Shown here: in pieces, positions 2,105 through 61,985 of the stretch | How the letters are laid out: each line of letters opens with the position of its first letter | Numbering within the stretch: the stretch's first letter is position 1 | Source of the DNA: an uncultured Clostridia bacterium | GTDB taxonomy: Bacteria; Bacillota; Clostridia; Christensenellales; CAG-138 | DNA: 64,000 nucleotides | Direction of reading: 5' to 3' | NCBI GenBank assembly: GCA_946411635.1 | Contig: CAMKES010000003.1 | Span: 1-64,000 of the forward strand | The notes under the pieces: model-generated | The model's input: only the letters and a program-made list of their open reading frames with translations | Databases searched by the model: none | Told to the model about the DNA's origin: nothing | Position numbers and translations under genes: made by a program

Positions 2105-4978
2105 ATGCGGCAACTGAAACGCCCGGTCTCTCTGCTTCTCGCTCTGCTGCTGATCTTTGCGCTCGTTCCGGCGGGCGTCGCGCAGACCGGTACGCTTACG
2201 ACCAATACCGGCACGCGCCACGAGGTCTGTACCGCGCTTTCCGCACAGGCGCAGGCGTACTATACCGCGGGCTATACGTACGACGAGATCGCCGCGCTTT
2301 CCGCGGATCCGAACGACCCGATGCACAGCGCGATGTTTACGAAACTCCATACGCTGATGGATACGACCATGACGAATTCCGTCAGCTACAGTTCGCTGAC
2401 GAGCTACTGGCCGAAGACGGACGCGAACAACGGCTCAAGCGACGCCGTGCTGTTCTATTCCGACGAGGTCAGCTCCAGCTACAACCGCGAGCACGTCTGG
2501 CCGAAATCGCGCGCGAGCTTTTATCAGTCGAACGGCGGCAGCGACCTGCATCACCTGCGCCCGACGAATAAGGATATCAATTCGACCCGCGGCAACATGA
2601 CCATGGGCAACGTCAGGAACGTCTACACCTCCTACACCCCGAAGGCGTACAACGGCAGGATCGTACTGTGGTACAACTCCGCCGCCGACCTCGTCGAGGT
2701 CAACGACAACATCAAGGGCGACGTGGCGCGCATCCTGCTGTACGTCTGGTGCCGATGGGAAGAGAAGAATCTGTACGAGAACGATCCGGATCCGTATTCC
2801 GCGCCCGGGGACACCGGCGGGAACAACGGACTGAAGGTCATCGAATCGCTCGACACGCTGCTCGAATGGATGGAGCTCGATCCGGTCGACACGTGGGAAA
2901 TGTCAAGAAACGATCAGTGCGAAAACGTGCAGGGCAACCGCAACGTGTTCATCGACTATCCCGAGTACGCGTGGCTGCTCTTCGGGCTCGAACCGCCGGC
3001 GGATTATTCAACGCCGAGCGGTGAAGCCGGAAACTATGAAACCTTTTCGATCACCGCGATCGCGAACAACGCTGCGTGGGGCAGCGTTGCCGTCACCGGA
3101 CGTACCGTGAACGCGACGCCGAACGCCGGGTATTATGTGCAGAACGCGACCGTTTCGCCCGCGGGCGCGGCGCTTCTGACGCGCTCCGGTAATTCCTTCC
3201 GCGTGACCAATATGACCGCGGACTGCACCGTGACGGTCGTCTTCGCGGCAAAAACGCCGGTCACCGTCACCTTCACGGATGCGATCGGTCTGAACGCGAC
3301 GACCGTGAGCACCTACGCGGGCGACGCCTTTACGCTGCCCGTCGGCGCGAACGTGACGGTCGGCGGCACGGAATACGTGTTCTTCGGCTGGGCGGACGCG
3401 AGCGTCGCCGACACGACGAACGTTCCGACCGTCCTTACGGGCGGCAGTCAGCACAGCGTGACGGAGGACACGACGCTGTGCGCCGTCTACCGCTACGGCG
3501 TGGAGGGCGGCACCGAAAACGAGTGGACACAGGTCACAAACGCCGCGGAGCTCGCAGACGGCGGCGAGTACGCGTTCATCGGCGTCCCGTTCGACAGTTC
3601 GCGGGAAAGCGGATTCGCGATGAACAACACGCCGATCAAGGAAGGATTCTGGTCCTACAGCGCGCTCGAAGACGTCACCGGTTCGTTCGACGCCGGCACC
3701 GCCGCGGTCAGCGCGGTCCCCGCGATCGCCGTCTGGAGAGCGGGACAGCTCGCGCCGGATACCTTCTCGTTCACGAACGCCGCGGGCGGGGAAGTGCTCG
3801 CGCTGCAGACAGGCAGCAACTCGTCCTATAAGAAATTCAACGTCTCCGCGACGCAGGCGTCGCTTTCGGATACCGCGACCTGCTGGCGCATCCGCAGCAT
3901 CTCGGACAATTACCGGATCAAGCTTTCGACCGACCTGTACAACAGCTTCTTCCTGTGCCTTGCGTATGAATACGACGATTTCGCCGCCTATTCGGGCGAC
4001 AATCAGGGCGCATGGGCGATCGCCGCGTGCTATATGCTGATGCGGACCGGCGGCAAGACCTATCATTACACCTCGTCGATCGGCGATACGCCGACGCCTA
4101 CGCCTACGCCGACGTCCACGCCTACCCCGACCCCGACGCCTACGCCGACGCCCACGCCGACACCCACGCCAACTCCCACGCCTACGCCGACCCCGACGCC
4201 TACGCCTACGCCGACGCCGACGCCGACGCCCACGCCGACTCCGACGCCGACGCCTACGCCGACGCCGACGCCCACACCGACGCCTACGCCGGTTCCCGAA
4301 CCGGTCGATCTGCCGCGGAACGGCGATTACGTCGTCCGCATTCGCGGCGGCTACGTGTCCGAGCATACGGAAACGGTCAACGGCGCGGACTGCCTGCGCG
4401 TGGATGTGTATCTCGAAGGCGTGACGGACGAGAGAATGCTTTCGTCTCTGCAGTTTAAGCTCTTATACGATTCGGAGCAAGTGACGTATGTAAAGCATCA
4501 GATACTGTCGGGGAATGGAGCGTTAGGCGCTTTCAATCCAAAGGTCGATGGATTGATTCAATACGCATATGTTTTTACGACCGGGATTATGATCGACGAG
4601 GATACGCCATTTCTGACGCTTTGGTTCACGGTCGCGGAGGAGCTCGGACCCGGCACGCAGATCGGCTTTGCGTTTTCCGAGCCGATCAAGGCGTATTCGA
4701 TTGTCGCGGGCAGCGACAGCGCGCAGAAGCGCTCCGTCGGCGCACAGCTGAAGCCGTACGGGATCGGGCCGATCTATGGCGACGCGAACTGCGACTGCGA
4801 GGTGACGGCGGCGGACGCGGCGACGATCCTGCGCGCGGCCGTGGGACTGCACGCGCTGTCCGAAGCGGGGCGTGTGAACGCGGACGTGGACGGAAGCGGT
4901 TCCGTGACGGCGGCGGACGCGGCGCTGATCCTGCGGCGCGTGGTGAAGCTGATCGACCGTTTCCCCGCGGAGGAATGA
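2105..4978 (+). CDS. Secreted endonuclease I (EndA/NucM-like) with repeat domains, Pro-Thr linker, cohesin-like module and dockerin type I
   Basis: Signal peptide; [29 protein letters not shown] endonuclease I motif; long (PT)n; C-terminal [23 protein letters not shown]...[23 protein letters not shown] dockerin repeats. Confidence 0.85.
4089..4292 (+). repeat. Low-complexity Pro-Thr linker encoded by tandem CCN-ACN codons
   Basis: Uninterrupted cctacgccgacgcc-type hexamer repetition. Confidence 0.9.
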
Positions 4979-4993
4979 TCCCGAAAACCGGAA

Positions 4994-5021
4994 AGACGGC
5001 GCTTCGGCGCCGTCTTTTTTT
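4994..5021. terminator. Terminator between convergent genes
   Basis: agacggcgcttcggcgccgtctttttt hairpin. Confidence 0.7.
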
Positions 5022-5679
5022 ATTTGCCGCCGGTCAGATAGGCGAGCACCCCGTCGGCGATCGCGTCGGCCAGGCGCTGCTGATACGCCGGCTCCTGCAG
5101 GCTTCGTTCGTCCTCCGGATTGCTCAGGAACCCGCATTCGACGAGCACGGACGGCACGGAGGGGATGCGCGTCACGTAGTTGTTGCCGGGGTTCGCAAGC
5201 CGCGCGTCGCGTCCGAGCGCGGCGGTCAGCGCGTCCATCACGCATTGCGCGAGCGCCTTTCCGCTGTCCGCGCCCGCCTGATAATAGCACATCGGCCCTT
5301 TCACGCGGCGGTCCGCAAACTTGTTCATATGGATCGAAACGGTGCAGTCCGCGCCCTCGGAGCAGAGGATCGCGCCGCGCCGCGCCATGTCGTCGCGCTT
5401 CGTATCCGCGAGCGCGTCCGGTCCGGTCCGGGTGCGCAGCACGAAGCAGCCGCGGTCCTCGAGCGCCCTTGCGACGCGTTCGCCGATCAAAAGCGTCAGT
5501 TCGGATTCCCGGACGCCCGTGTCGACGCCGATCGCGCCGCAGTCGCGTCCGCCGTGTCCGTAATCGAGGATCACGAAATACGCCGGCGGCTCCGTCCCGA
5601 GCGTGACGGGGGTGCACGGCGCCGCGGGCGCGCAGTTGAGAAGGAAAAAGGACAGAAGGAGCGTCAGCGTTCGTTTCAT
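5020..5679 (-). CDS. cwlD: N-acetylmuramoyl-L-alanine amidase (amidase_3, CwlD-like)
   Basis: ILDYGHGGRDCGAIGVDTGVRESELTLLIGERV, SIHMNKF and VLVECGFLSNPEDE motifs. Confidence 0.75.
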   Translation of the reverse strand: MKRTLTLLLSFFLLNCAPAAPCTPVTLGTEPPAYFVILDYGHGGRDCGAIGVDTGVRESELTLLIGERVARALEDRGCFVLRTRTGPDALADTKRDDMARRGAILCSEGADCTVSIHMNKFADRRVKGPMCYYQAGADSGKALAQCVMDALTAALGRDARLANPGNNYVTRIPSVPSVLVECGFLSNPEDERSLQEPAYQQRLADAIADGVLAYLTGGK

Positions 5680-36817: not shown

Positions 36818-36905
36818 GCCGGTGTGATGGAATTGGCAGACGTGACGGACTCAAAATCCGTTGGGCTAATCACCCGTGTGGGTTCGAGTCCCACCACCGG
36901 CACCA
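36818..36905 (+). tRNA. tRNA-Leu (anticodon CAA), complete, CCA encoded; carried by the element
   Basis: Full cloverleaf with acggaCTCAAAAtccgt anticodon arm, variable arm gggctaatcaccc, gtgggttcgagtcccac, caccggcacca. Confidence 0.93.
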
Positions 36906-36933
36906 CGAAACCCCAGTATTTACTGGGGTTTCG
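36906..36933. terminator. Terminator-like hairpin after the element tRNA-Leu
   Basis: gaaaccccagtatttactggggtttc. Confidence 0.6.
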
Positions 36934-38299
36934 AGCTTTTTGGAACCCCGTTTTTGTCCTTCAAATCCGTTGCGTTTGCCATTGTCCGAGCCCTTGTTTT
37001 TGCTTTTTTCAAATCCGATTCATTAGATGCCGCGCCGCTTTCCGGGTTTTCGGAGGTCTTTTCGGGAGGCGCCGAAATCCGTTGCGTTTGCTCCTGTTGC
37101 CCGTCTTTTTGGGATAAAATGCCCATGATCGCGTTTGCCGAAGCCACCTTGGACGAGTAATCGAGGTGCGTATAGATGTTGCTCGTCGTCGCGATATCGC
37201 TGTGACCGAGCCACTCCTGAATGTCCTTCAGCGCCACTCCGTTCGCGTACAGCAGCGTTGCGCAGCTGTGCCTGAGATCGTGAAAGCGAATTTTCCGAAG
37301 CCCGTGCTTTTCCAGAAATACCGGAAACGCCTGCGTGAGGTAATTCGGCTTCATCAGCTCTCCCAGTTCGTTCACATAGATGTAGTCAAGATTCTCCGTG
37401 TTGTAGCTGCTGCCGCAGAGCCGCCGATTGATCTCCTGCTTGTCGCGGATCGTCAGAAGAAAATCCTCGAACGGCTTCACAAGGGGCAGCGTCCGATGCG
37501 AAGATTTCGTTTTTGTACGATCCTTCCTGACAAGCATCGTTGAGCCGTCCACCTTCGTCTGCACGACGGTGTGGCGGATCGTGATCGTTTTTCGCTCGAA
37601 GTCGATCGCATCCCATTTCAGTCCGCAGACCTCGCCCCGCCTCAAGCCGTAGAACGCGGCAAGCATCACGCCGAGTTCGAGGTTCGTTCCCTTGACGAGA
37701 CGCAGCAGCGTGTCCAGCTCGTCCGCAGTGTAGGGATGGGTTTCGAAGCGGAGCTTTTTCGGACGCTGTACCTTGGCGGCAGGGTTGCTGTCGATCAGGC
37801 TTGTTTGAAACGCATACTTCAACGCCTTGTGGATGTTTGCGTGGCGATGAATGACCGTGTTCGGGCTTACCTTTTCGACCTCCAGTTCATAGGTGTAGTA
37901 GTCCTGGATGTGCTTTGGCGTGACGTCGCGGAGCTTCAGCTTCGGATGTCGCTTGTTGAAATACGGAATGATTTTGCCCTTGATGCTCTTTTCGTAATTC
38001 GAGTAGGTGGAAAGCTCCACGCTGTTTTTCATCATCTTGAGCCAGTCCGAAAGGAAGTCCGTGAATTTCAGTTCGTCCGGTACGACCGTCATGCCGGCGC
38101 TTGCCGCAAGCTTTCGATATTTCAGTTCCTGTTCTTTCTTCTGACGCGCCTCCTGCAGCAATTCTTCGGCGCGCTTCTTGTTACCCTTGACGGGCAGTCC
38201 CGTGGACTGCGACGGCGTTTTGCGGACGCCGTATTCGTCCGTATAGCTCAGAACGAGATAGTAGATCCCGTTCTTTTCTCTCAGATGTCCTGCTACCAT
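36920..38299 (-). CDS. Tyrosine recombinase / site-specific integrase
   Basis: N-terminal AP2-like/SAM-like domains; catalytic GLRRGEVCGLKW, IRFHDLRHSCATLLYANGVALKDIQEWLGHSDIATTSNIYTHL. Confidence 0.95.
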   Translation of the reverse strand: MVAGHLREKNGIYYLVLSYTDEYGVRKTPSQSTGLPVKGNKKRAEELLQEARQKKEQELKYRKLAASAGMTVVPDELKFTDFLSDWLKMMKNSVELSTYSNYEKSIKGKIIPYFNKRHPKLKLRDVTPKHIQDYYTYELEVEKVSPNTVIHRHANIHKALKYAFQTSLIDSNPAAKVQRPKKLRFETHPYTADELDTLLRLVKGTNLELGVMLAAFYGLRRGEVCGLKWDAIDFERKTITIRHTVVQTKVDGSTMLVRKDRTKTKSSHRTLPLVKPFEDFLLTIRDKQEINRRLCGSSYNTENLDYIYVNELGELMKPNYLTQAFPVFLEKHGLRKIRFHDLRHSCATLLYANGVALKDIQEWLGHSDIATTSNIYTHLDYSSKVASANAIMGILSQKDGQQEQTQRISAPPEKTSENPESGAASNESDLKKAKTRARTMANATDLKDKNGVPKSSKPQ

Positions 38300-38627: not shown

Positions 38628-39515
38628 TCATCTTTCTTCCTCGCGATTGCGCGTTCTGCGCTGTTCGCGGGATTGCTCCCGTGCTTCCAGCATCCGCACA
38701 ATCGACCGTTCCATGTCGCGCGTGGTATAGTCGATGGGAAAGAACCGACGGATGTCCTGCGCCGGGATGCTCACACGCTCCCGCTGATTGGCTTTCTGCT
38801 CCTGCATCACCGCCATGATGCTCTCCTCGGTCAGATCGCCGCAGCGGAACAGGTTCTTCAGCCGGACGGCTTGGGAGTAGGAGGGCGTGCAGTCCTCCGC
38901 TTCCATGGCGTCCAGCACAGCGTATTGTTTTTCTTCGTCGAGATACGACAGCTCCACGCCGACCGACAGCGCCATCTCATCCCGATCGAGATACTCCAAC
39001 AGCTCCGGGATCAGGTTCGTCAGGCGAATATAGCGCTGTACCGTCTTGTAGCTTTCGCCGTACTCCTCACCGATCTGCGCCGTGGTACGGTTGTCGTCCG
39101 ACTTTGGGACAATTTGTCCCGAAGTGATAAGATCGGTTCGCTGCCCCTGTCGGTTCAACGCATCCGCTTTCAGCTTGTACGCAAACGCCTTTTCACTCGG
39201 CAGCAGATGCTCCCGGTGCAGATTGCTATCCACGAGCAGGATCGCCGCCTCGTTGCGGCTCAGATCGCAGACGATCGCGGGCACGGTCTTGAGCCCGACC
39301 GCTTTTGCCGCATGACAGCGCCGGTGACCGGAGATGATCTCGTACCCGTCCTTTTCGGGACACACCAGCACCGGTGACAGAATGCCGTGCGCGTCAATGC
39401 TGTCCATCAGCGCGAACATCGCTTCGTCGTCGGTGACCTTGTACGGATGGTTCGGAAACGGATGCAGCGCGGAGAGCGGCAGCTCCGCAGAGGTCGGTTT
39501 ATCGTTCCGGGACAT
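38628..39515 (-). CDS. ParB/RepB/Spo0J family protein
   Basis: LHPFPNHPYKVTDDEAM...ISGHRRCHAAKAVGLKTVPAIV; HTH region. Confidence 0.9.
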   Translation of the reverse strand: MSRNDKPTSAELPLSALHPFPNHPYKVTDDEAMFALMDSIDAHGILSPVLVCPEKDGYEIISGHRRCHAAKAVGLKTVPAIVCDLSRNEAAILLVDSNLHREHLLPSEKAFAYKLKADALNRQGQRTDLITSGQIVPKSDDNRTTAQIGEEYGESYKTVQRYIRLTNLIPELLEYLDRDEMALSVGVELSYLDEEKQYAVLDAMEAEDCTPSYSQAVRLKNLFRCGDLTEESIMAVMQEQKANQRERVSIPAQDIRRFFPIDYTTRDMERSIVRMLEAREQSREQRRTRNREEER

Positions 39516-40488
39516 AGCGCGGTTTCTCCTTCCGGTCGAGCGTTTTCCGAACATCGTCCGGGAGGCGGTCGAGAAGGCCCTGCGCGCGGCGCTGCCATTC
39601 CTGCAGCTCGCTTGCGCGGATCGCCGTTTCCTCCAAAAGCTCGCTCATCTTTACATACTCGTCGTCCTGCTGTGCGATCGTTTTGCTCTGCTCCGCAACC
39701 TCCGTTTCCAGTTCCCGTTTTGCTTTTTCCAGTTCACGGACGTAGGTTTCTGTGCTTTGCATCTGTCCCGCAAGCGAATAGCAGACCGGCAGCATCTGCC
39801 CGATCAGCTTCAGCGCGTCGTCGCGTTTCTTTCCGGCGTTGAACACCGTGACCGTTTTCAGCGCTTCCTCCAGCCGACCGTAGCTTTTCGAGAGATCCTT
39901 CGCCATGCGGAACTGGTATGCAGGGATGTGTTTTCGGTGCGTGATCCGGCGCGGCAGTCCGCGCGACAGGGTGGGGTAGCGCTCCGCCATCCATGCGTGA
40001 AACTCGTCCTGCCACTTGGAAAGCTCCTGCGCGTTGCCGAGAATGTCCTTTGCACTCAGCCGTCCGTTCTTCGTGATCGGCACAAAACAGAGGTGCATGT
40101 GCGGCGTTGTTTCGTCCATGTGAACGACCGCCGAGATCACGTTTTCCTTGCCGATCCGTTCGTACAGAAACGCGGTGGCGCGCTCAAAGAACTGTCGCTG
40201 TGCGTCCGGCGTCATGCCGTTCAGAATCTCCGGCGTTGCCGTGATCAGCGTTTCGACCAGCACCGTGCTGTTGGATCGCGTCCGGCAGCCGACCGCTTGA
40301 ACGCGGCTTTCGTATGCCTCCTTGTAGGTTCCCTCCGGCTCAACCAGATGGTAATTCAGATGCGATTTGCTCCGGTCGATGTTCGGATTGCTCTTGTATT
40401 CCAATTTCTTGCGCTCGTTGTGCCGGTTCCGCGCGGCGACACCGCCTGCCTTGCATTTCTGAAATCGCATGATTGCGTATTGGCTCAT
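39499..40488 (-). CDS. MobV family relaxase (plasmid recombination/mobilization protein)
   Basis: N-terminal MSQYAIMRFQKCKAGGVAARNRHNERKK...NPNIDRSKSHLNYHL; VVHMDETTPHMHLCFVPI. Confidence 0.92.
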   Translation of the reverse strand: MSQYAIMRFQKCKAGGVAARNRHNERKKLEYKSNPNIDRSKSHLNYHLVEPEGTYKEAYESRVQAVGCRTRSNSTVLVETLITATPEILNGMTPDAQRQFFERATAFLYERIGKENVISAVVHMDETTPHMHLCFVPITKNGRLSAKDILGNAQELSKWQDEFHAWMAERYPTLSRGLPRRITHRKHIPAYQFRMAKDLSKSYGRLEEALKTVTVFNAGKKRDDALKLIGQMLPVCYSLAGQMQSTETYVRELEKAKRELETEVAEQSKTIAQQDDEYVKMSELLEETAIRASELQEWQRRAQGLLDRLPDDVRKTLDRKEKPRYVPER

Positions 40489-50082: not shown

Positions 50083-51066
50083 CTACTTTGTACTGGCATC
50101 CTGCCCAATCTGATAAATCGGGGCATCAACTATGTCAAGTGAGATCCCATTCACTAGTCGCAAATCAGAAGATACGGCTTTACATAACTCGGGATTGAAC
50201 AAAACTACATTAACACCCCCTTTATGCAGAGAACTGTTAAAGCGTAATCCATCGAAACCCATTCGCTTGATTTCTTCCGCTAAAAACTGAGTTGGCAAAT
50301 AATGCTGCACTTCGCCGTTAAAGGGCTTTGAAAACATTTTACCAATCATATCGTATAAACTTGACCATTGATTGTCTGTAATACGCATCTGATCTTGAAT
50401 ATCCAATGTTAAGTCATAAACAATAATATCTTTCAGAAGACGAAACTCTGCGACGCTTACTATATCACCAATAATAGGTCTTATTTCATATACTGGGGTT
50501 CTATCGTCTTCACACAAATATAGATACCGGATATGATCCGGATTTGCCCGCCCATTTCCCACCAAATTTGATTTTGGCGCGGTTGATTCTATTGCCGAGT
50601 ACCCTTTAAATCTCACATTCTTCTTCCACTTTTGCTGAAGATTACTTGCGGTTTTGCTGCTTGAAGCTTTGCATGCATCTAAATTGCTATAATACTGTGA
50701 TTGAAGTGACAGCAATTTCTCTGAATCTGAAAGGCTTTTAGTGAACTCATCTATTTCCTTTGAACTGTGTCCCGTCGACTTCATGTAATACCGCAAAAGC
50801 TTATCATAGCTATTATACGGATAAACACGAGCACGATAAAAGACCGAATTGCTTGGGATCTTTTTTGCAGCTCTTTCAGCGCAATCATGCAGTTCTGCTA
50901 CAACAGGGCTTTTTGAGGAAAAGCGATTTGTATAAATCAAATCCTTTTCGAACTGATCCCACTTTTCTTTTTGTTGTCTTTCGTCTTCTTCCAAAAGAAG
51001 CAAAAGAGCAAGAAAATACTCTTCGTTAGTCAGATCATTCGTCTTTTCGTTTTTCGGAGTCTCCAT
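50083..51066 (-). CDS. RES-domain protein
   Basis: FYRARVYPYN...GRANPDHIRYLYLCEDDRTPVYEIRPIIGDIVSVAEF; FLAEEIKRMGFDGLRFNSSL. Confidence 0.75.
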   Translation of the reverse strand: METPKNEKTNDLTNEEYFLALLLLLEEDERQQKEKWDQFEKDLIYTNRFSSKSPVVAELHDCAERAAKKIPSNSVFYRARVYPYNSYDKLLRYYMKSTGHSSKEIDEFTKSLSDSEKLLSLQSQYYSNLDACKASSSKTASNLQQKWKKNVRFKGYSAIESTAPKSNLVGNGRANPDHIRYLYLCEDDRTPVYEIRPIIGDIVSVAEFRLLKDIIVYDLTLDIQDQMRITDNQWSSLYDMIGKMFSKPFNGEVQHYLPTQFLAEEIKRMGFDGLRFNSSLHKGGVNVVLFNPELCKAVSSDLRLVNGISLDIVDAPIYQIGQDASTK

Positions 51067-51387
51067 TCCTTTATCCCTTCACAAAGTACTAGTATTCCTA
51101 ACTGGTGAACCATTAATCAAGTATCCTAGTATTATTATATCGACTTTTTTCGTTATTTCAACAGACTAGTCTTCATTTCGTGGTAAAAGCAAGCTGATAA
51201 TACGAATAGACTAACGGACGCCTTATTCATACGCTTGAACTTCAAACAAATTAGGGAACAAATTAGCGTTTGACAAAGGAAAGAATTCCCTGATTTGCGC
51301 TGCGAGAGAAGTGCTGGAGGCGGTTCTGACGTGCTAATATATTCGCAATTCATTGACATAAGAAAAGGAATTTGCTAAAATATAAGC

Positions 51388-51660
51388 ATGAATATGATGA
51401 AAACACCGAAAGAGCTCGGCATGGAAATTGCCGCGAATCTGAAGAAGCTGCGAAAGCAGAGGAAGCTTTCGCAAAAAGCGCTTGCCGAAAAGGCGGGTAT
51501 CAGCTACGGCTCGATGAAGCGGTTCGAGCAGACCGGGGAGATTTCGCTCGAATCGCTGCTGAAGATCGCCGTCGTGCTTGGCGAAACTGCGTCGTTTGAA
51601 GCGATCTTCAAACCGACCGAAATCAAGTCCATTCAGGAGATCATCGATGGAAACCTTTAA
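51388..51660 (+). CDS. hipB: HipB-like XRE antitoxin
   Basis: ELGMEIAANLKKLRKQRKLSQKALAEKAGISYGSMKRFEQTGEISL. Confidence 0.8.
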   Translation: MNMMKTPKELGMEIAANLKKLRKQRKLSQKALAEKAGISYGSMKRFEQTGEISLESLLKIAVVLGETASFEAIFKPTEIKSIQEIIDGNL

Positions 51661-52771
51661 GTCGTTGGATGTGCTCTATCACGGGCGAAAGGTCGGCACG
51701 CTCGCGCTGTATCAGAGATGGCTCGGCGCCTTCCAGTACGACGCGGATTGGCTTCTGGACGGCTTTTCGATCAGCCCGTTCACGCTGCCGCTGGACGGTC
51801 GCGTGTTCATTCCGAAATACGACCCGTTCGAGGGCTTGTTCGGCGTGTTCGCGGACAGCTTACCGGACGGCTGGGGACGGCTTTTAGTGGATCGGATGCT
51901 CCTCAAAGAGCACGAGGACCCGAATGCGATCAATGCGCTCCAGCGGCTGGTGATCGTCGGTGAGTCCGGCATGGGTGCGCTGACCTACCGCCCGTCCGTG
52001 CAGTGGCAGAGCGAGACCACGCAGAAGGAGCTGGACTACTATGCCGAGGAGTGCAGCCGCATTCTGAAATCCGCGTATTCCGAGAATCTGGACGAGCTGT
52101 TCCGGCTCGGCGGCTCCTCCGGCGGCGCGCGACCGAAGATCATGACGGAGGTCGACGGCGAGGATTGGATCATCAAGTTCCCGTCCGCGATCGACGGACC
52201 GGACATCGGACGCATCGAATATGAATACAGCCAATGCGCAAAGAAGTGCGGCATCGAAATTAGCGAAACGCGCCTGTTCCCGTCCAAGACCTGCGACGGG
52301 TATTTCGGCACAAAGCGCTTTGACCGGCGCGGAACCGAGCGCATTCACATGCTGTCCGCGTCGGCGCTGTTGGAGCATTCACATCGCCTGCCGACACTGG
52401 ACTACCATACGCTCATGAAGCTCACGCTTGCGCTGACGCAAAGCTACAAGGAGGTCGAGAAGCTGTACCGCCTGATGTGCTTCAACGTCTTTGCCCACAA
52501 CCGCGACGATCATGCCAAGAACTTTGCGTTCTTGTACGAACCGGAAACCGGCTGGCGTCTCGCCCCGGCATACGATCTAAACTACAGCAACAGCACCGGC
52601 GGCGAACACGCAACAATGATTAACGGCAACAGCGCGAATCCCTCGATTAAGGATCTCTACGCTGTCGCCGAAGCAATCGGGCTGTCGAAGGAAAGCTACA
52701 AACACATTACGGAGCAGGTGCAGGATGCGGTTGAGACGGATTTGAGCGATATTTACAAGAGAATCAGATAG
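51647..52771 (+). CDS. hipA: HipA-like serine/threonine kinase toxin
   Basis: VGTLALYQRWLGAFQYD; GGSSGGARPKIM; RLMCFNVFAHNRDDHAKNFAFLY; overlaps hipB. Start METFKSLDV at 51647. Confidence 0.9.
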   Translation: METFKSLDVLYHGRKVGTLALYQRWLGAFQYDADWLLDGFSISPFTLPLDGRVFIPKYDPFEGLFGVFADSLPDGWGRLLVDRMLLKEHEDPNAINALQRLVIVGESGMGALTYRPSVQWQSETTQKELDYYAEECSRILKSAYSENLDELFRLGGSSGGARPKIMTEVDGEDWIIKFPSAIDGPDIGRIEYEYSQCAKKCGIEISETRLFPSKTCDGYFGTKRFDRRGTERIHMLSASALLEHSHRLPTLDYHTLMKLTLALTQSYKEVEKLYRLMCFNVFAHNRDDHAKNFAFLYEPETGWRLAPAYDLNYSNSTGGEHATMINGNSANPSIKDLYAVAEAIGLSKESYKHITEQVQDAVETDLSDIYKRIR

Positions 52772-52802: not shown

Positions 52803-52831
52803 TTGCTTATTATACGGTAGCATGCTATAAT
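52803..52831 (+). promoter_or_regulatory. Predicted promoter of the NurA-HerA operon
   Basis: TTGCTT - 17 nt - TATAAT at 52826-52831; inverted repeat tcactat/atagtga follows at 52842-52865. Confidence 0.45.
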
Positions 52832-52873
52832 ATACATTAGTTCACTATATTCTGTCGAATAGTGAGGATAAAG

Positions 52874-53995
52874 ATGAGTACACTGCAAAGTTTATTTAAA
52901 AGGAGCGGCATCACTTTATACCAAAACGAGAGCCTGGATCTTGATCATTATTATCAAGATCCATATCAAGATGCAGAGGATACTTTTCCTGATCAATATC
53001 AAATGGGAGAACCGTTTGAAAAAAAGAAACTCCCAAAACAGCAGAGAAAGATAGATGTTATCCGTGAAAGAGAATCAAATTTTAGCTATTTCATGGATGG
53101 TTCTCGTCGCACATATAAAATCGGTGATATTGTTTTAGAGAAGTCTAAAATTTATCCGGTTGTCGTTGCACAGGTTCGAGCAGGATGTGGCTTTAGAGGC
53201 AGTGATCGAAGAATCCATAAGCACTTAATCGAGCAAAAGAACCTTTTGCTCGTTACAAGTCGCTTTAACAATAGTGATTTCCAAGAACTGAAATATCGAA
53301 TCAAGAAAGGGAATCTTGCTCAAGAACTCAATTTGGATGTTATTCAGTATTCCTTTGATAAAACGAAAGATTTGGCCCCAACAAACGCTGCGATTGCAAA
53401 AGCCAATAGCATAATGCATGAAATGGAAATATCTATCCTGCAGCAGATGGTTAATTCAAAAGATCTTGATACCGAACACTTGTTGATTGTTGATGGACCA
53501 TTACAGTTTTTAAAGGAAGATACGGGAAAGAAATCATTCGCGGATTTGTTTTACAATGTTGTTGGCGTCTCAAAAACATTTGACCCAATGTTACCGATTT
53601 CTGAGCGGTCGCGCGGAGGCGCACAAGTTGGGTCACAATTATTGAGGTTGGAGTATGGGGAACGAACTCCTGTCTTCCATAAAAAGAATAGTAGAGGACG
53701 AGAATTTGGCTGCTGGTATTTGAGAATTCGTCCCAAATCTCAAGTAAGTAGTCCTCTTGAAGGAATCATTAAAGTTGAAAAGATGGCATGTGAAGAGGAT
53801 TTAGAGGATGGATTTGATTCAGATATTATTGACAATATTTCACACTGGCTAATAGAGGAAGGATGTCCAACCTGTCATGGAAAAGACGATAGATGGGCGG
53901 CGCATTTATATCCTGTTTATCTTACCGAAAAGATGGTGAAGGCAACTTTTATGGGCGATTTATCATTTATCCATCAGTTTAAAAAGGAGTTTTAG
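52874..53995 (+). CDS. NurA-like nuclease-fold protein
   Basis: YFMDGSRRTYKIGDI, LLIVDGPLQF, VGVSKTFDP, ERTPVFHKK, AHLYPVYLTEKMVKATF, followed by a HerA-like gene. Start MSTLQSLF at 52874. Confidence 0.7.
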   Translation: MSTLQSLFKRSGITLYQNESLDLDHYYQDPYQDAEDTFPDQYQMGEPFEKKKLPKQQRKIDVIRERESNFSYFMDGSRRTYKIGDIVLEKSKIYPVVVAQVRAGCGFRGSDRRIHKHLIEQKNLLLVTSRFNNSDFQELKYRIKKGNLAQELNLDVIQYSFDKTKDLAPTNAAIAKANSIMHEMEISILQQMVNSKDLDTEHLLIVDGPLQFLKEDTGKKSFADLFYNVVGVSKTFDPMLPISERSRGGAQVGSQLLRLEYGERTPVFHKKNSRGREFGCWYLRIRPKSQVSSPLEGIIKVEKMACEEDLEDGFDSDIIDNISHWLIEEGCPTCHGKDDRWAAHLYPVYLTEKMVKATFMGDLSFIHQFKKEF

Positions 53996-54006
53996 GGGGA
54001 ATCGCA

Positions 54007-55680
54007 ATGAAACAGATTATCGGGAAAGTATCCGCAACGGAAAAGAGCCCTTCAACTTGTGACGACTTTTCGTTTTGGTTGACAGATGAAACTATATTGA
54101 GTCCCTTTGATATTGTCCGTGTAACAAATCCGATTGATCAATCGGATACATATGGCGTTGTTCAAGATATCTTACATATTACAGATAGCCCTAGTCATAT
54201 TAGCAATTTTATCTCTTCCGATTTTGGAGATGCAACCGCTGAGTCAATGACAAGGAAACTCGGCCTATCTTATGCAAAGTGCTCTGTTATACATAATACA
54301 AAAGAAAATTATATGCCATTACCTGATGGGGCAATGGTTTCTACAACAGATGAAAACGACATCATGATTGCTTTAGGATTGGATTCGATCCCAGAAGAAT
54401 CTGCGATTCCTGCAGGATTGATGAAAGCATCGAATGATGTTATCGTTCCGATCAAATATAATGGTGATTTTATTGTAGGACCTGAAGGCGCACACGTTAA
54501 TGTTTCCGGCATTTCTGGTCTTGCAACAAAAACAAGTTACATAATGTTTCTGCTGAAGGCAATTCAGTATAAACTGGATAATGACGTAGCGATGATTATA
54601 ATGAACGTGAAAGGAGACGATCTGCTTCATATCCATCAGTCAAATGACGTTATTACAGATTCACAAAAAGCAGAGTGGGAAGCTTTGGGAGTTCCTTGTG
54701 AGCCGTTTGATAATGTGCGGTATTTCTATCCTTATTCTGGAAGAAGAGACTCTCTTTTTACAAATTCAGCGATTTCTCAAGAAGATCTTGCAGAACAATT
54801 CAATGATGGCATAGCTTCAACTTTTGCATATACGTTTGAGCACGATGTGGACAAGATCTCTATGCTTTTCTCAAACGTGGACGATCCCAATTGGACGATT
54901 GAATCTATTCTCAATTTTATTGAAACAAACCCGGAATTTAAGAGCATTTCTGATTGGGATGGGTTTAAGGAAAAGCTTAAGAGTTATGTTAACAAGGCAA
55001 ATGGGAAATCAACCGGCAGTGCTGAAATACCGGTGCAATCGTGGAGAAGGTTTAGCAGATTGATAAACAATTCAATCAACGACCCTCTATTTCAAAACTC
55101 CATTTCAGAGAAAAAAGAGCGTCATCAAGGATACCTATCTGATGCAATCATGAATATTGAAGGAGGGAGTGCTTTTGTAGTTGATATAGCCGGGCTAAAT
55201 GAGCAACTCCAATGCTTGGTCTTTGGAGATGTCATTCAATCAGTTTATGAATTGAAACATGGAGATTTTGATGATCTTTCGAGAAAGACGAGAAAGCAGA
55301 TTCCGAAGCGTATTATTATATTTGTTGATGAATTGAATAAATATGCCCCGTCGACTTCGGGAAAGAATTCGCCTTTGCTGTCAAATCTGCTTGATATTAC
55401 TGAGAGAGGTCGTTCAGAAGGAGTTATACTGTTTTCTGCAGAGCAGTTTAGAAGTGCAGTCCATGAAAGAATAAAAGGGAATTGTGGGACAAATGTTTAT
55501 GGCCGATCAAATGCAATTGAGATTTCAAGACCTGACTACAAGTTTGTTCCAAATGTTTATGCGAATATGATGACAAGGCTCAAAAAAGGAGATCTGATTG
55601 TCCAGCATCCCGTATTCAAGACTTTGTTGAAAATCACGTTCCCCTTCCCCTCATACAATCAAGGAGGTAGTAAAAAATGA
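54007..55680 (+). CDS. HerA-like ATPase/translocase
   Basis: VGPEGAHVNVSGISGLATKTSYIMF P-loop variant; RIIIFVDELNKYAP Walker B; follows NurA-like gene. Confidence 0.8.
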   Translation: MKQIIGKVSATEKSPSTCDDFSFWLTDETILSPFDIVRVTNPIDQSDTYGVVQDILHITDSPSHISNFISSDFGDATAESMTRKLGLSYAKCSVIHNTKENYMPLPDGAMVSTTDENDIMIALGLDSIPEESAIPAGLMKASNDVIVPIKYNGDFIVGPEGAHVNVSGISGLATKTSYIMFLLKAIQYKLDNDVAMIIMNVKGDDLLHIHQSNDVITDSQKAEWEALGVPCEPFDNVRYFYPYSGRRDSLFTNSAISQEDLAEQFNDGIASTFAYTFEHDVDKISMLFSNVDDPNWTIESILNFIETNPEFKSISDWDGFKEKLKSYVNKANGKSTGSAEIPVQSWRRFSRLINNSINDPLFQNSISEKKERHQGYLSDAIMNIEGGSAFVVDIAGLNEQLQCLVFGDVIQSVYELKHGDFDDLSRKTRKQIPKRIIIFVDELNKYAPSTSGKNSPLLSNLLDITERGRSEGVILFSAEQFRSAVHERIKGNCGTNVYGRSNAIEISRPDYKFVPNVYANMMTRLKKGDLIVQHPVFKTLLKITFPFPSYNQGGSKK

Positions 55681-57275
55681 GCGACATCGTTGTAGGTAAG
55701 AATACTCTGGAAACCTTATCCACAGGCATGTATGTAGATCCTCGTACTATATACAGAGAGTACATTCAAAACGCTACAGACTCTATAGATTCTGCTGTAA
55801 GACAGGGAATTATAACCAAAGAGGAAGGCGAGATTCACATAAAGATAAATACGAAGTCCCGCGTCATTTCCATCAGAGATAATGGTGTTGGTATTCCTTG
55901 TGAAAAAGTATTAAATACACTTTCTGATGTTGGTAATTCCAGCAAGGATTATACAGAGAATCGTGGATTCCGGGGAATTGGTAGATTAGCTGGGCTAGCT
56001 TATTGTAAAACGCTCTATTTCATCACTTCAGCGAAAGGTGAATCTGTTGAAACAGTAATGAAATGGGACTGCAAAAAAATGAAAGAGCTGCTTTCACCCA
56101 GCAACAATTCTGCGGAGACACTGGTTGATGTGATTAAAGCCATTTCCGATATTTGCCCTCCCAGACCTGCAGAGGCAGACAAGCACTATTTTGAAGTACG
56201 CATGGAAGATGTGGACGATGATGAAAAAGGCAACATTTTAATAGACGAAAGTGATATCCGAAACTATCTTGCGATTGTTGCCCCTGTGGATTTTGATGGA
56301 CAAAAGTTTAGGCAGGCAAAAAAGATAAAAGAGTTTTATAAGGAAAAAGGTCAAATGATCTCAACTTATAGAATTTTCTTCGGAGATAGAAAACAGCCGG
56401 TTTATAAGCTCTACACGCAAAGATTAGATACCAACGTAGGCAGGGGAAAACAAAAAGAGGATGAGCATATAAAGGATGTCGAATTGCTTTATAAGACTAC
56501 TGAAAACGACGAACCGCTTTACATTGGTTGGCTCGCAATTACTGGCTTCTCTGGACAGATTAGAGATCCGAATTTAAGGGGAATCAGGTTGCGAAAGAGT
56601 AATATACAAATTGGTGACTCGCAAACTTTTGACAGCTACTTTCCTGCAGAAGGAAATAACGCAAATAAAATGTTTGCCGGAGAGATACATGTTCTTGACA
56701 GAGAGGTGATACCTAATTCGCAACGCGATGATTTTGAACCAAATGATTCTTTGTACGAATTAAAAAGAGCACTTTCTCAATGGGCAGGGGACATTAATAA
56801 ACAGTATCGTCGCGGGACTTCTCAAGCATCTTCTTCAATGAGAAAGATTGAAGAAGGTCTCAGGCAGCAACAGGAGATTGCTCAAAAAATAGAACGCGGC
56901 GGAGTGTCGTCAGATGCAAAAAAGGAAGAGCTGGCAAAAGAACTTGAAAAAGTTCAGAGAACAATTAAACGGGAAAGTGGAACGCTTCAAAGAGCGATAA
57001 AGAATAGCGGAGCGGACGAGAATCGACAAGAAAAGGTTAACGCTTTATTAGAGAAAGCTAGAAAATCCTCGACGGAAGCGGTTTCACTATCTAATAAAAT
57101 TGTTCAAGCAAAGTACGCAACGAAGGAAGATTTGCCTACAAGTTACTCAAGAGAAGAAAGGAAACTATATCAAAGAATCATTAGCGTAATAGATTCCTAT
57201 TTTGCAAATGATCCAAAGATTGCGGAAAACCTCCGTGAAAAGATTAAGCAAGAGCTAAGTGTAAAGAAAAAATGA
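55677..57275 (+). CDS. GHKL (Hsp90-like) ATPase-domain protein
   Basis: N-box REYIQNATDSIDSA, DNGVGIP, GFRGIGRLAGLAY; coiled-coil C-terminus; ATGA overlaps both neighbours. Confidence 0.87.
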   Translation: MSDIVVGKNTLETLSTGMYVDPRTIYREYIQNATDSIDSAVRQGIITKEEGEIHIKINTKSRVISIRDNGVGIPCEKVLNTLSDVGNSSKDYTENRGFRGIGRLAGLAYCKTLYFITSAKGESVETVMKWDCKKMKELLSPSNNSAETLVDVIKAISDICPPRPAEADKHYFEVRMEDVDDDEKGNILIDESDIRNYLAIVAPVDFDGQKFRQAKKIKEFYKEKGQMISTYRIFFGDRKQPVYKLYTQRLDTNVGRGKQKEDEHIKDVELLYKTTENDEPLYIGWLAITGFSGQIRDPNLRGIRLRKSNIQIGDSQTFDSYFPAEGNNANKMFAGEIHVLDREVIPNSQRDDFEPNDSLYELKRALSQWAGDINKQYRRGTSQASSSMRKIEEGLRQQQEIAQKIERGGVSSDAKKEELAKELEKVQRTIKRESGTLQRAIKNSGADENRQEKVNALLEKARKSSTEAVSLSNKIVQAKYATKEDLPTSYSREERKLYQRIISVIDSYFANDPKIAENLREKIKQELSVKKK

Positions 57276-58960
57276 GGAAGATTCTTCTTGTAGAACCTGC
57301 ATATAAAAACAAATATCCGCCGATGGGGCTTATGAAAATAAGCACCTATCATAAAATGCTGGGTGATGATGTTACTTTTGTCAAAGGGATAGATGCTGTT
57401 CTCGCAATGAAAGCATGGGATAGGATATATATCACCACTCTATTTACTTTTGACTTTGATATAACGGTTGATACAATAAATCATTACAAAATGTATGCTG
57501 ATGATTTAGATAGCATTTTTGTCGGCGGAATAATGTCATCATTGATGCCAGAAAAAGTAATGGCAGCAACCGGGCTCCATAAAAAGAACATTTTGATAGG
57601 TTTATTTACCGATACTTCAGTTGTTGGGGACGATAATGATATAAATGTAGATCTATTACCGCTGGATTATGATCTTTTAGAACAAATATCATATAAATAT
57701 CCCGCTGGAGATAATTATTTCGCTTATACTTCAAGGGGATGCCCAAATCATTGTAAGTTCTGTGCGGTTCCGATATTGGAACCTCAGTTTACTGTTACAA
57801 ATAATATCGTACAGCAAATTGAAAAGATTAATCAAAAATATGGGCCGAAGCAAAACCTGTTGATGTTGGACAACAATATTTTGAATGCCCCGAATCTGTC
57901 GGAGATTATTGATTCTCTTTGTCAAGCAGGGTTTTATCGAGGAGCAAAATATGAGAATCCTGGCGATTATAACATTGTGTTGATGCGTTATCACAATGGA
58001 GATAGAGGCGCATTTTTAGATAAGCGGTTGCAGGATTATTTGATATCGTTTAAGAAGAGAATTAAATCTGAGAGCACACTGGAAACTTATCTACAGATTG
58101 TAATAGATGCTGAAGATGCTAAAGATTATGCACAGTATATGCTTGATCATGAAGCTCAGCTAAGACCTATTATAGAAAAATATCGTAGTAAAGCAACCAG
58201 CAACAGATATATTGATTTTAATCAAGGTGTTGACGGTAGGCGGATAAATGATGATACAATGGCTCAATTGGCAAGACTTGCAATTCGTCCTCTGAGGATT
58301 GCTTTTGATGACATTGCCTATGAGAAAATATATGTGAATGCAGTACATACTGCATTCAATCATGGGATAAAGGAGCTGTCAAACTATATCCTTTTTAACT
58401 TCAATGATTACCCGGAGGATCTCTATAAGCGATTGGAGATTAATATTAAGCTTAACGTAGAGCTAGGAATTCAGATTTTTTCTTTCCCTATGAGATTTGC
58501 TCCAATAAACAGAACGGATAGATCCTATGTTGGCAAGCATTGGAAAAGGAAGTATTTACAGGCTATCTCTGCCATTTTACATGTAACAAAAGGCGTTGTT
58601 GCTGCTGGATCTGATTTTTTCTACAAAGCCTTTGGCAAGGACGAGAACGAATACAGGGAGATCCTTGCAATGCCGAGAGATATGATCATGTACAGGTCCC
58701 ACTATGAGGAGACTGGTGAGACAAATGAATGGCGAGAACTATATCATAGTTTAACTGCAGAACAAAAAGAAGCTTTGGTTGATTTTGTATCGTTATCAAA
58801 TGAGGAGATCAAAGAAAAACCTTCTCCAAAGGGGTTAGAAAGCATCATTCCCTTTTATCTGCTAAAGTTCCGACCGAGCGCAAAAGTAAAAGAAAAAAGG
58901 GATAGGGTTAGCGAAAATGATGCTTATGCTTTTATAGCTGATAGCATAGAGATAGAGTAA
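57272..58960 (+). CDS. B12-binding-domain-type radical SAM protein
   Basis: N-terminal KILLVEPAYKNKYPPMGLMKISTYHKMLGDDVTFVKG and SIFVGGIMSSLMPE; TSRGCPNHCKFCAVP (CxxxCxxC). Confidence 0.87.
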   Translation: MRKILLVEPAYKNKYPPMGLMKISTYHKMLGDDVTFVKGIDAVLAMKAWDRIYITTLFTFDFDITVDTINHYKMYADDLDSIFVGGIMSSLMPEKVMAATGLHKKNILIGLFTDTSVVGDDNDINVDLLPLDYDLLEQISYKYPAGDNYFAYTSRGCPNHCKFCAVPILEPQFTVTNNIVQQIEKINQKYGPKQNLLMLDNNILNAPNLSEIIDSLCQAGFYRGAKYENPGDYNIVLMRYHNGDRGAFLDKRLQDYLISFKKRIKSESTLETYLQIVIDAEDAKDYAQYMLDHEAQLRPIIEKYRSKATSNRYIDFNQGVDGRRINDDTMAQLARLAIRPLRIAFDDIAYEKIYVNAVHTAFNHGIKELSNYILFNFNDYPEDLYKRLEINIKLNVELGIQIFSFPMRFAPINRTDRSYVGKHWKRKYLQAISAILHVTKGVVAAGSDFFYKAFGKDENEYREILAMPRDMIMYRSHYEETGETNEWRELYHSLTAEQKEALVDFVSLSNEEIKEKPSPKGLESIIPFYLLKFRPSAKVKEKRDRVSENDAYAFIADSIEIE

Positions 58961-58980
58961 AAGAAAGGGATTTAGCACCA

Positions 58981-59049
58981 ATGTCATTTTTGATTGCAGT
59001 CCACGTTAATGAAGGAATAGTGTTGGCAAGTGATCGGCGCATCACATAA
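58981..59049 (+). pseudogene. Truncated proteasome-beta-like (Ntn hydrolase) ORF remnant
   Basis: AAAGGGA-type RBS then MSFLIAVHVNEGIVLASDRRIT-stop; removing one base after the last codon continues as NDAYFIERLYV. Confidence 0.5.
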
Positions 59050-59151
59050 TGATGCATATTTTATTGAGCGATTGTATGTGTGACTTGACAACAAGGGCAA
59101 AGAGAGAGCATATTAGTTTTATGGATTCTTTTAATAATGGGAGGATACGAA

Positions 59152-59937
59152 ATGGCCAGATACGATAATGTAAAATATACGAATTCTTTTCTCAATCAAG
59201 TAATTCTGCGGTTTGATTTTTTACAATTTGCTTCTACCAACCGTGTCTTTACAGATGATATTGAAAAGAGTATTCTTCGTTTCTTTCCTCGGAGAGGGAT
59301 GGATCAAATAATGAGGTTTAACTCTATTAATGTCGTTTTTGATTCCAATAATCCTTCCACTCCGAATGCGCAGAGAGAGATTCAAGAGGGGATTCAAAGG
59401 GAGTACTATTCTCTTAACCAGAAAAACAAGTTGGTGCTATCTAATAAGTATCTGATTATTGAGATAAACGAATATTCAAATTTTGAAGAGTTACAGCAGT
59501 GGCTCCAGGGAATTGTTATACCTTTTTATTTAGAAAATCAGCTGACCGTTATCCGAGCAGGGATTCGCTATATCAATATTTTGAAACCAGACAGAGTAAA
59601 AATCAGAAAGAATTTGTTTTCTCCAGAAATCGCAGCGACTATTAATGTAAATGAGTTTCAAGAAAGCGGAGAAATATCCTTAATTCGATCGATGCATATG
59701 ACAGAATACCTTGTAAATGGGATGCGACTAAACTTTAGATATGGTCTTTTTAACCCGCAATATCCGAATAGGCTTCTAGATAATAGTTTCGCGTTAGATT
59801 ATGATTGCTATAGTGAAGAGCCGATCGAAGTTGCAGATGGATTGCTTCGTTGCGTAGAAAAGGGGCATAATGCAATACAATTGCTCTTTGAATCCTCAAT
59901 TACAGAAGCACTCCGGAAGGTGATGCGTAATGAATGA
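59152..59937 (+). CDS. TIGR04255-like family protein
   Basis: YTNSFLNQVILRFDFLQF; IRAGIRYINILKP; ITEALRKVMRNE; gggagg RBS before ATG 59152. Confidence 0.7.
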   Translation: MARYDNVKYTNSFLNQVILRFDFLQFASTNRVFTDDIEKSILRFFPRRGMDQIMRFNSINVVFDSNNPSTPNAQREIQEGIQREYYSLNQKNKLVLSNKYLIIEINEYSNFEELQQWLQGIVIPFYLENQLTVIRAGIRYINILKPDRVKIRKNLFSPEIAATINVNEFQESGEISLIRSMHMTEYLVNGMRLNFRYGLFNPQYPNRLLDNSFALDYDCYSEEPIEVADGLLRCVEKGHNAIQLLFESSITEALRKVMRNE

Positions 59938-60157
59938 TTATCTTAAAAGCATTAGCAATTTGGAAAAGGGTATTACAGCATTAAAAGTTGAATCCTCAGA
60001 TATTATTGAGGGAACCCCGATTGTATCGGCACCTTTAACTCCGCCATTGATTACAGATGCGGATACTATTGGAGTGCAAAACCAAAACAATGAGCTCCCT
60101 GCTGAGTATCTGACCCCACGAACAATAAAAGTGAGAAAATACCGACTAAAGAAGTAA
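59930..60157 (+). CDS. Small hypothetical protein with basic tail
   Basis: Overlaps the TIGR04255-like gene; ends PRTIKVRKYRLKK. Confidence 0.55.
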   Translation: MNDYLKSISNLEKGITALKVESSDIIEGTPIVSAPLTPPLITDADTIGVQNQNNELPAEYLTPRTIKVRKYRLKK

Positions 60158-60161
60158 TAAA

Positions 60162-60743
60162 ATGTCTACTTATTCAAAAGCCATTGTTCCTGAAAACGCA
60201 AGGCCAATTATGCAGGGGGATATATATAAAAACGTCAAATACAGCTACATCGATTCTGAAGACGATGCAGGAGTAAATGTAGTCGAGTTTGAGTTCCCTC
60301 TTGCAGTGATAATCAGCCAAGCATGTGATGCTATCTCTATGGAGCAAATAATCACAGAACAAAAAGGAAAGCCTGCCAAGTTTATGCCATCAATTTTGCT
60401 CTGCCCTATATATGATAGGACAGTTGCGAAAAATGGGGATCACCTTATTGATGCGTTTAGCAAGCTGGATTTAGTTCTGGTAAAGGAAGATATATATCAT
60501 AGCGACGATTATAAAGTTGCTCAACGGGATTGGCACTATAGATTACATGCCTTAGAAGTCGTTATAGATGGTAAAGGAGTAATCAATAATGCTATCATTG
60601 ATTTCAAACATTACTTTACGGTCCCCATGTCATATCTTGTGAAGCACAAAGAAGATCGTCTTTTCCATCTTGATGACTTGTATGCAGAGCAACTGTCTTT
60701 GAAATTTGCAACTTTTATTTCTAGAGTTGCAATTCCAGATTGA
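60162..60743 (+). CDS. Hypothetical protein, last gene of the putative operon
   Basis: Four-base gap from the preceding ORF; typical AT-rich coding sequence. Confidence 0.65.
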   Translation: MSTYSKAIVPENARPIMQGDIYKNVKYSYIDSEDDAGVNVVEFEFPLAVIISQACDAISMEQIITEQKGKPAKFMPSILLCPIYDRTVAKNGDHLIDAFSKLDLVLVKEDIYHSDDYKVAQRDWHYRLHALEVVIDGKGVINNAIIDFKHYFTVPMSYLVKHKEDRLFHLDDLYAEQLSLKFATFISRVAIPD

Positions 60744-61727: not shown

Positions 61728-61783
61728 ACTCAAAATCCGTTGATGGCGACATCGTGTGGGTTCGAGTCCCACCACCGGCACCA
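61728..61783 (+). pseudogene. Displaced 3' half of the host tRNA-Leu(CAA) (right attachment junction)
   Basis: actcaaaatccgttg then gatggcgacatc variable arm then cgtgtgggttcgagtcccaccaccggcacca, identical to the 3' end of 36818-36905. Confidence 0.88.
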
Positions 61784-61965: not shown

Positions 61966-61985
61966 GAGTCCCACCACCGGCACCA
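61966..61985 (+). repeat. Additional 20-nt copy of the tRNA-Leu 3' end
   Basis: gagtcccaccaccggcacca identical to 36886-36905 and 61764-61783. Confidence 0.75.

Follow-up and report, generated by a model that had tools for sequence, protein, structure and literature searches.

In T. kodakarensis, HerA-NurA breaks down the two strands of dsDNA alike, and the pair has been proposed to act against viruses (PMC12977600), such that, on the basis of this published work on relatives, HerA-NurA can be regarded as a dsDNA-degrading machine. The Dnd systems are organised around an ABC-ATPase-DndE core, to which different parts for modification and for restriction are recruited (PMC10853773). Here, we describe a locus in a 64,000-nucleotide stretch of contig CAMKES010000003.1 from an uncultured Clostridia bacterium (hereafter, the window), in which genes for a NurA-like nuclease, a HerA-type ATPase, a GHKL ATPase and a radical SAM enzyme (rSAM) form a four-gene unit (52862–58960, all on the + strand, Table 1). 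This four-gene cassette recurs in many unrelated bacteria, and the rSAM, usually with the GHKL ATPase, is an exchangeable core that is joined to different nuclease modules. We see an even chance that the four genes constitute a single mobile counter-invader system, in which an rSAM-GHKL core provides recognition or marking and NurA-HerA provides degradation.

Table 1. Features of the locus and of the island that carries it (positions in the window).
Feature	Position	Strand	Basis or remark
tRNA-Leu (CAA), island integration site	36818–36905	+	ARAGORN
Tyrosine integrase of island	36920–38299	-	PF00589, 1e-27
Mob_Pre relaxase (mobilisation)	39499–40488	-	PF01076, 1.8e-52
NurA-like RNase H-fold nuclease	52862–53995	+	Family profile, AlphaFold model/Foldseek
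HerA-type DNA translocase ATPase	54007–55680	+	Match to 7f6d_B
GHKL (Hsp90-like) ATPase, C-terminal helical part	55677–57275	+	HATPase_c_3, 1.2e-10
Radical SAM enzyme, N-terminal B12-type Rossmann domain	57272–58960	+	Radical_SAM (PF04055), 1.6e-6, just under the Pfam curated cut-off; phrog_9298, 1.2e-42
Terminator-like hairpin	59039–59055	+	Consensus scan, number at chance level; inside the 176-nt gap
Promoter-like site	59085–59114		Inside the rSAM/TIGR04255 gap
TIGR04255 protein (separate cassette)	59137–59937	+	2e-16; 60.6 bits, curated cut-off 30
75-aa ORF (separate cassette)	59930–60157	+	
193-aa protein (separate cassette)	60162–60743	+	
Far attachment site, 31-nt exact copy of tRNA-Leu 3' end	61753–61783	+	Repeat match

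The original prediction had placed these genes in one tightly coupled, AT-rich operon, and much of that description is present in the sequence: the reading frames, their order and their single strand are as claimed, the HerA/GHKL and GHKL/rSAM genes overlap by 4 nt as ATGA (55677/55680 and 57272/57275), and the G+C content of the run is 0.37–0.39, compared to ~0.60–0.66 across most of 1–33 kb. The small gaps claimed elsewhere do not extend to the interval between the end of the rSAM gene (58960) and the start of the TIGR04255 gene (59137), which is 176 nt, and the proposed upstream promoter and downstream hairpin carry no weight, since the numbers of such sites are not above those in shuffled sequence (26 promoter-like sites compared to 24.1, and 6 terminator-like sites compared to 5.7). 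The hairpin listed in Table 1 may nevertheless mark the end of the four-gene operon. In the interval between the two cassettes, a short reading frame at 58981–59049, MSFLIAVHVNEGIVLASDRRIT, resembles by eye the start of a proteasome-type Ntn hydrolase, and is possibly a gene remnant. At the other end of the unit, the ATG at 52874, behind a GAGG, is the more likely start of the NurA gene than the GTG at 52862.

The predicted operon thus stands for its NurA-HerA-GHKL-rSAM core and not for its TIGR04255 part, as the TIGR04255 gene and the two ORFs that follow it accompany no other copy of the core, on which ground a seven-gene single operon was rejected. Relatives of the first and third of these genes are similarly neighbours on a Methylocystis iwaonis plasmid (L138, 6548–8076) from which the core is absent, and which carries them, with a small ORF of 70–75 aa, downstream of an abortive-infection family gene. 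Because the TIGR04255 part is missing from the other core loci, and its outer genes are found together without the core in Methylocystis, we consider it a separate cassette. The 75-aa ORF resembles its Methylocystis counterpart in position only (score of 22, compared to a shuffled mean of 24.1), and the 193-aa protein has no relative in 382 genomes of the class besides its own genome.

The domain identities of the four core proteins can be established computationally, in each case with intact motifs. The single NurA sequence has no Pfam match and reaches Deinococcus NurA only at an E-value of 0.088, but a 12-member profile gives 7f6d_H as its sole significant match (2.4e-6), and Foldseek searches with the AF2 model (pLDDT 73.4, pTM 0.77) return 7f6d_G (1.7e-12) and TM1739 (1.9e-9), with nothing else below 0.1. 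Residues D79, E189, D211 and H348 are kept in 19 of 19 members, and are the putative active-site residues. HerA matches 7f6d_B at 6.8e-40 as a single sequence and at 8.5e-62 by profile, carries a variant P-loop, GISGLATKTS, that is near-identical to that of Deinococcus HerA, and retains both DELN and the Walker A/B residues K175, T176, D441 and E442 across all 19 members. Both folds named in the original prediction are therefore supported, and both lead to the Deinococcus pair; by analogy, the HerA-NurA of the window is predicted to form a complex with nuclease activity. The two proteins occur without GHKL or rSAM in one locus (L074), and therefore a lone NurA-HerA pair exists.

In the GHKL ATPase, N-box residues E28 and N32 are invariant across 38 members, and the nearest solved folds are HtpG (2.3e-8) and TRAP1, in the N domain only: Hsp90 middle and C-terminal domains were not found, with the best match confined to profile positions 24–146 and no further Hsp90 Pfam domain. 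The rSAM carries CxxxCxxC (C157, C161 and C164) in 48 of 48 members, and its AF2 model (pLDDT 87.2, pTM 0.83) has MgmA (4.3e-10), TsrM, AprD4, MiaB, OxsB and CysS as Foldseek neighbours, all at low identity. The substrates of these neighbours are proteins, tRNA and small molecules. No PDB chain, viperin included, matches the rSAM profile at an E-value of 0.01, and an identity as viperin or a known solved radical SAM enzyme was set aside by sequence. The designation of this enzyme as B12-type agrees with fold neighbours of the B12 class, but the canonical DxHxxG is absent from all 48 members; some true B12-dependent radical SAM enzymes also lack it, and we use the label for the modelled architecture only. 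One further candidate (L003) was set aside as a more distant radical SAM protein without the partners (30% identity over 86 residues), and a profile comparison between GHKL and rSAM found nothing.

Conservation of the neighbourhood, which the original prediction had proposed as a check, is borne out: NurA, HerA, GHKL and rSAM follow one another in the same order and on the same strand in 17 loci from all sources, some of which are related to each other and thus not fully independent counts, mostly with overlaps or gaps of <25 nt. These include a RUG12424 copy with 64–79% identity to the window, a human-gut phage scaffold and three further genomes of the phylum. One locus with NurA-HerA, L059, contains a second GHKL and, in addition, a ParB-like gene; we note that its HerA gene (3952–5403, G210) contains one in-frame TGA, and may be broken or misassembled. 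Among 392 genomes of the class, the rSAM is found in 11, HerA in 8 (from eight families) and GHKL in 9, and all of the HerA and GHKL genomes fall within the 11 rSAM genomes. Assuming independence, such nesting would arise by chance with probabilities of 1.3e-14 (HerA) and 1.0e-16 (GHKL), values to be read with the caveat that both queries were built from loci found through the rSAM and so favour their relatives, although other HerA or GHKL genes of these families would still be listed. Co-occurrence and conserved order together reject a chance run of genes.

The quartet is thus co-conserved as predicted, but what recurs across module types is the rSAM(-GHKL) core rather than the whole quartet. 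On alphaproteobacterial plasmids and viral contigs, rSAM and GHKL lie beside ParB-like proteins, an SNF2 helicase and a small protein whose conserved PD...EAKT signature is typical of PD-(D/E)XK nucleases. A DGQHR protein of the DndB/DpdB type is often found beside the rSAM in alphaproteobacteria, as well as near it in L129. In two loci, the rSAM instead has a ParB-like partner, which matches PD-Lambda-5_A in L022 and was assigned by a similar motif only in L052. In four genomes of the phylum (L128–L131), the rSAM, distant in L131 (1e-24), follows a Pbe-type module, with PbeA in L128 and L130, PbeA and PbeC in L129, and PbeC in L131, plus a ~150-aa protein of PbeD size; GHKL is downstream of the rSAM in two of the four. 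DndC (TIGR03183) was found in none of 10 genomes at an E-value of 1e-5, the window's own genome included, a threshold that a very divergent DndC could escape, and the presence of phosphorothioation genes in these genomes was set aside on this basis. Three of the Pbe-type loci (L128, L129 and L130) also have a ~1000–1120-aa protein ahead of PbeA, with no strong PADLOC match and, for L129, no Pfam family.

On the rSAM tree, loci with NurA-HerA (type A) and with ParB/SNF2 (type B) interleave: L059, of type A, and L026, of type B, are fully supported sisters, and a single type A clade is rejected (AU p 6.5e-6), while long phage branches are uncertain in their placement. This interleaving, and the rejection of one type A clade, indicate that the nuclease modules were swapped. 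The rSAM and GHKL are themselves not strictly one machine, because GHKL is missing from several rSAM loci (L022, L052, L054, L128 and L131) and relatives of GHKL are also found paired with PIN-like nucleases. In five loci of alphaproteobacterial plasmids (L004 of Novosphingobium aromaticivorans pNL1, L005, L006, L008 and L009), a second GHKL paralogue and a PIN-like protein, which in L006 is PF18476, form a separate two-gene module.

The rSAM of the window belongs to the phage radical SAM family phrog_9298, whose phage copies differ in being shorter (~300–375 aa) and without GHKL, with HerA present too only in Marinitoga camini virus 1 (L060, 7927–11753). In this virus, NurA-HerA and a short rSAM relative lie in opposite orientation; its NurA bears the annotation of a Rad50/Mre11-associated exonuclease. 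Phage-borne relatives without the quartet partners are found near DNA methyltransferase, SNF2 or ParB genes: in four of six phages viewed, an annotated DNA methyltransferase lies within 6 kb of the phrog_9298 copy, and in a fifth a ParB-like gene is adjacent. DNA methyltransferases are common in phages, and this proximity is therefore suggestive only. Phages that carry the rSAM need not use it against restriction.

The claim that the genes lie on a mobile element is confirmed by a tRNA-Leu gene with a 31-nt repeat of its end, and by an integrase and a Mob_Pre relaxase beside the tRNA. The tRNA gene and the repeat delimit a mobilisable island of ~24.9 kb, which also carries ParB, and the operon sits near its far end. 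A second copy of the tRNA-Leu end, of 20 nt (61966–61985), lies 202 nt past the first, and is perhaps the trace of another integration. Just upstream of the operon on the same island, 50083–52771 encodes a RES-domain protein (2.4e-13) and a HipB/HipA toxin-antitoxin. Among the genes that flank other type A loci are AbiEi/AbiEii, LmuA/LmuB (Lamassu), PDC-M38A/B, PDC-S06, a type IV restriction enzyme (mREase_IV) and PD-Lambda-5_A proteins, as well as integrases and a relaxase, all given here as occurrences and not as a rate. The defence genes expected beside relatives are thus present, and a defence role of the cassette is well supported by this context.

Taking these observations into account, HerA, as a ring motor, and NurA would act jointly as a motor-driven nuclease, drawing dsDNA in and degrading it, and the GHKL ATPase would be a nucleotide-gated clamp or switch working with the rSAM. 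Together, rSAM and GHKL would chemically mark resident DNA, or else the DNA-bound complex, such that unmarked foreign DNA alone would be handed to NurA-HerA. By analogy with Dnd, a marking or licensing core would be expected to show the pattern seen here, in which the nuclease modules around rSAM(-GHKL) are exchanged, some partners are DndB-like or of the Pbe type, and phages carry lone copies. The parts of this reading differ in strength: the system very probably acts against phages or plasmids; whether the rSAM modifies DNA is evenly balanced, and its substrate is possibly tRNA, protein or a small molecule instead; and a protective rather than a targeting role of the mark on DNA is plausible, at somewhat under an even chance. 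Still more tentatively, rSAM-GHKL could be a new DNA-modifying core, placing a radical-chemistry DNA mark, that serves at least three restriction modules unrelated to each other (NurA-HerA, ParB with PD-(D/E)XK and SNF2, and PbeA/PbeC without DndC), with the lone phage enzyme imitating the mark.

The same genes could act without any self-mark, if GHKL senses invasion, the rSAM either modifies tRNA or protein or yields a product that is toxic or chain-ending, and NurA-HerA degrades DNA. The architecture of the rSAM, which is like that of enzymes modifying tRNA, peptides and small molecules, would fit such a sensing or abortive-infection role, as would the pairing of GHKL relatives with PIN-like nucleases, expected of a general switch; however, the rSAM is repeatedly partnered with DNA-processing modules, DndB-like and PbeA/PbeC proteins included, and its profile matches neither viperin nor another solved radical SAM enzyme, and we consider this reading unlikely, while keeping it ahead of the two that follow. 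A DNA repair function, with NurA-HerA resecting ends as proposed for Deinococcus and rSAM-GHKL repairing or handling lesions, appears improbable: although the closest solved relatives are the Deinococcus pair, and HerA relatives elsewhere accompany SbcCD, among 392 genomes of the class only 8, from scattered families, have the cassette, its carriers are a mobilisable island and phage contigs, its neighbours are defence genes, and its nuclease modules have been swapped. There is a similarly slim chance that the cassette is a device of mobile-element competition, guarding the island against rival plasmids or phages or aiding its transfer, and not a part of host immunity as such. The position of the operon near the end of an integrated mobilisable element agrees with this, as does the presence of both NurA-HerA and an rSAM relative in Marinitoga camini virus 1. 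For several copies, however, no recognised element was seen in the part of the flanks that was studied; such devices act as defence, and so this explanation overlaps with a counter-invader system that marks and degrades.

No named system in PADLOC (2023 release) matches the quartet, and no description of it or of the rSAM(-GHKL) combinations was found in a literature search that had preprints and most subscription papers outside its scope and could have missed a recent one; the Dnd and BREX surveys, by word search, do not show it. Within these bounds, the original prediction that the gene set belongs to no described system holds, and none of the three findings that it had named as refuting was made for the four-gene core, which is co-conserved, without a named match and supported in its folds. 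If the counter-invader reading is correct, the quartet is one member of a scattered, wide group of defence cassettes that share an enzyme pair absent from the described systems found, and HerA-NurA, a pair usually assigned to repair, has a role as a bacterial defence nuclease. The same reading, if right, might account for the PbeA/PbeC modules of genomes without DndC, and the demonstration of a new mark on DNA would make the finding categorically new.

Among known systems, the Deinococcus radiodurans HerA-NurA pair (7f6d) shares both folds and the variant HerA P-loop with the window pair, which differs in sharing an operon with the GHKL and rSAM genes, carried on a mobile island. The Sir2-HerA and HerA-DUF4297 anti-phage systems likewise combine a HerA ATPase with a nuclease or other effector, and the HerA of 8xau is weakly matched by the window profile (9.2e-7); however, they have no counterpart of GHKL and rSAM, and the effector in the window is NurA, with no Sir2 or DUF4297 domain in the operon by Pfam or PADLOC. 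The mad gene set of MADS was not found in the operon, where HerA alone weakly matches mad8 (7.1e-5). With Dpd (7-deazaguanine), there is a likeness in the DpdB-type and SNF2 proteins beside the rSAM in alphaproteobacteria, but the rSAM is not a Dpd gene, and the annotated neighbours of these loci include no DpdA (TGT-like) gene. Dnd and PbeABCD, which are linked to phosphorothioation, likewise combine a modifying part and a nuclease or translocase part as modules. No Pbe or Dnd protein of the window operon was matched by PADLOC, and DndC was matched in none of the 10 genomes searched, whereas some rSAM loci have PbeA, PbeC and DndB-like proteins of their own, and in these cassettes it is rSAM-GHKL that occupies the place expected of the modifying part.
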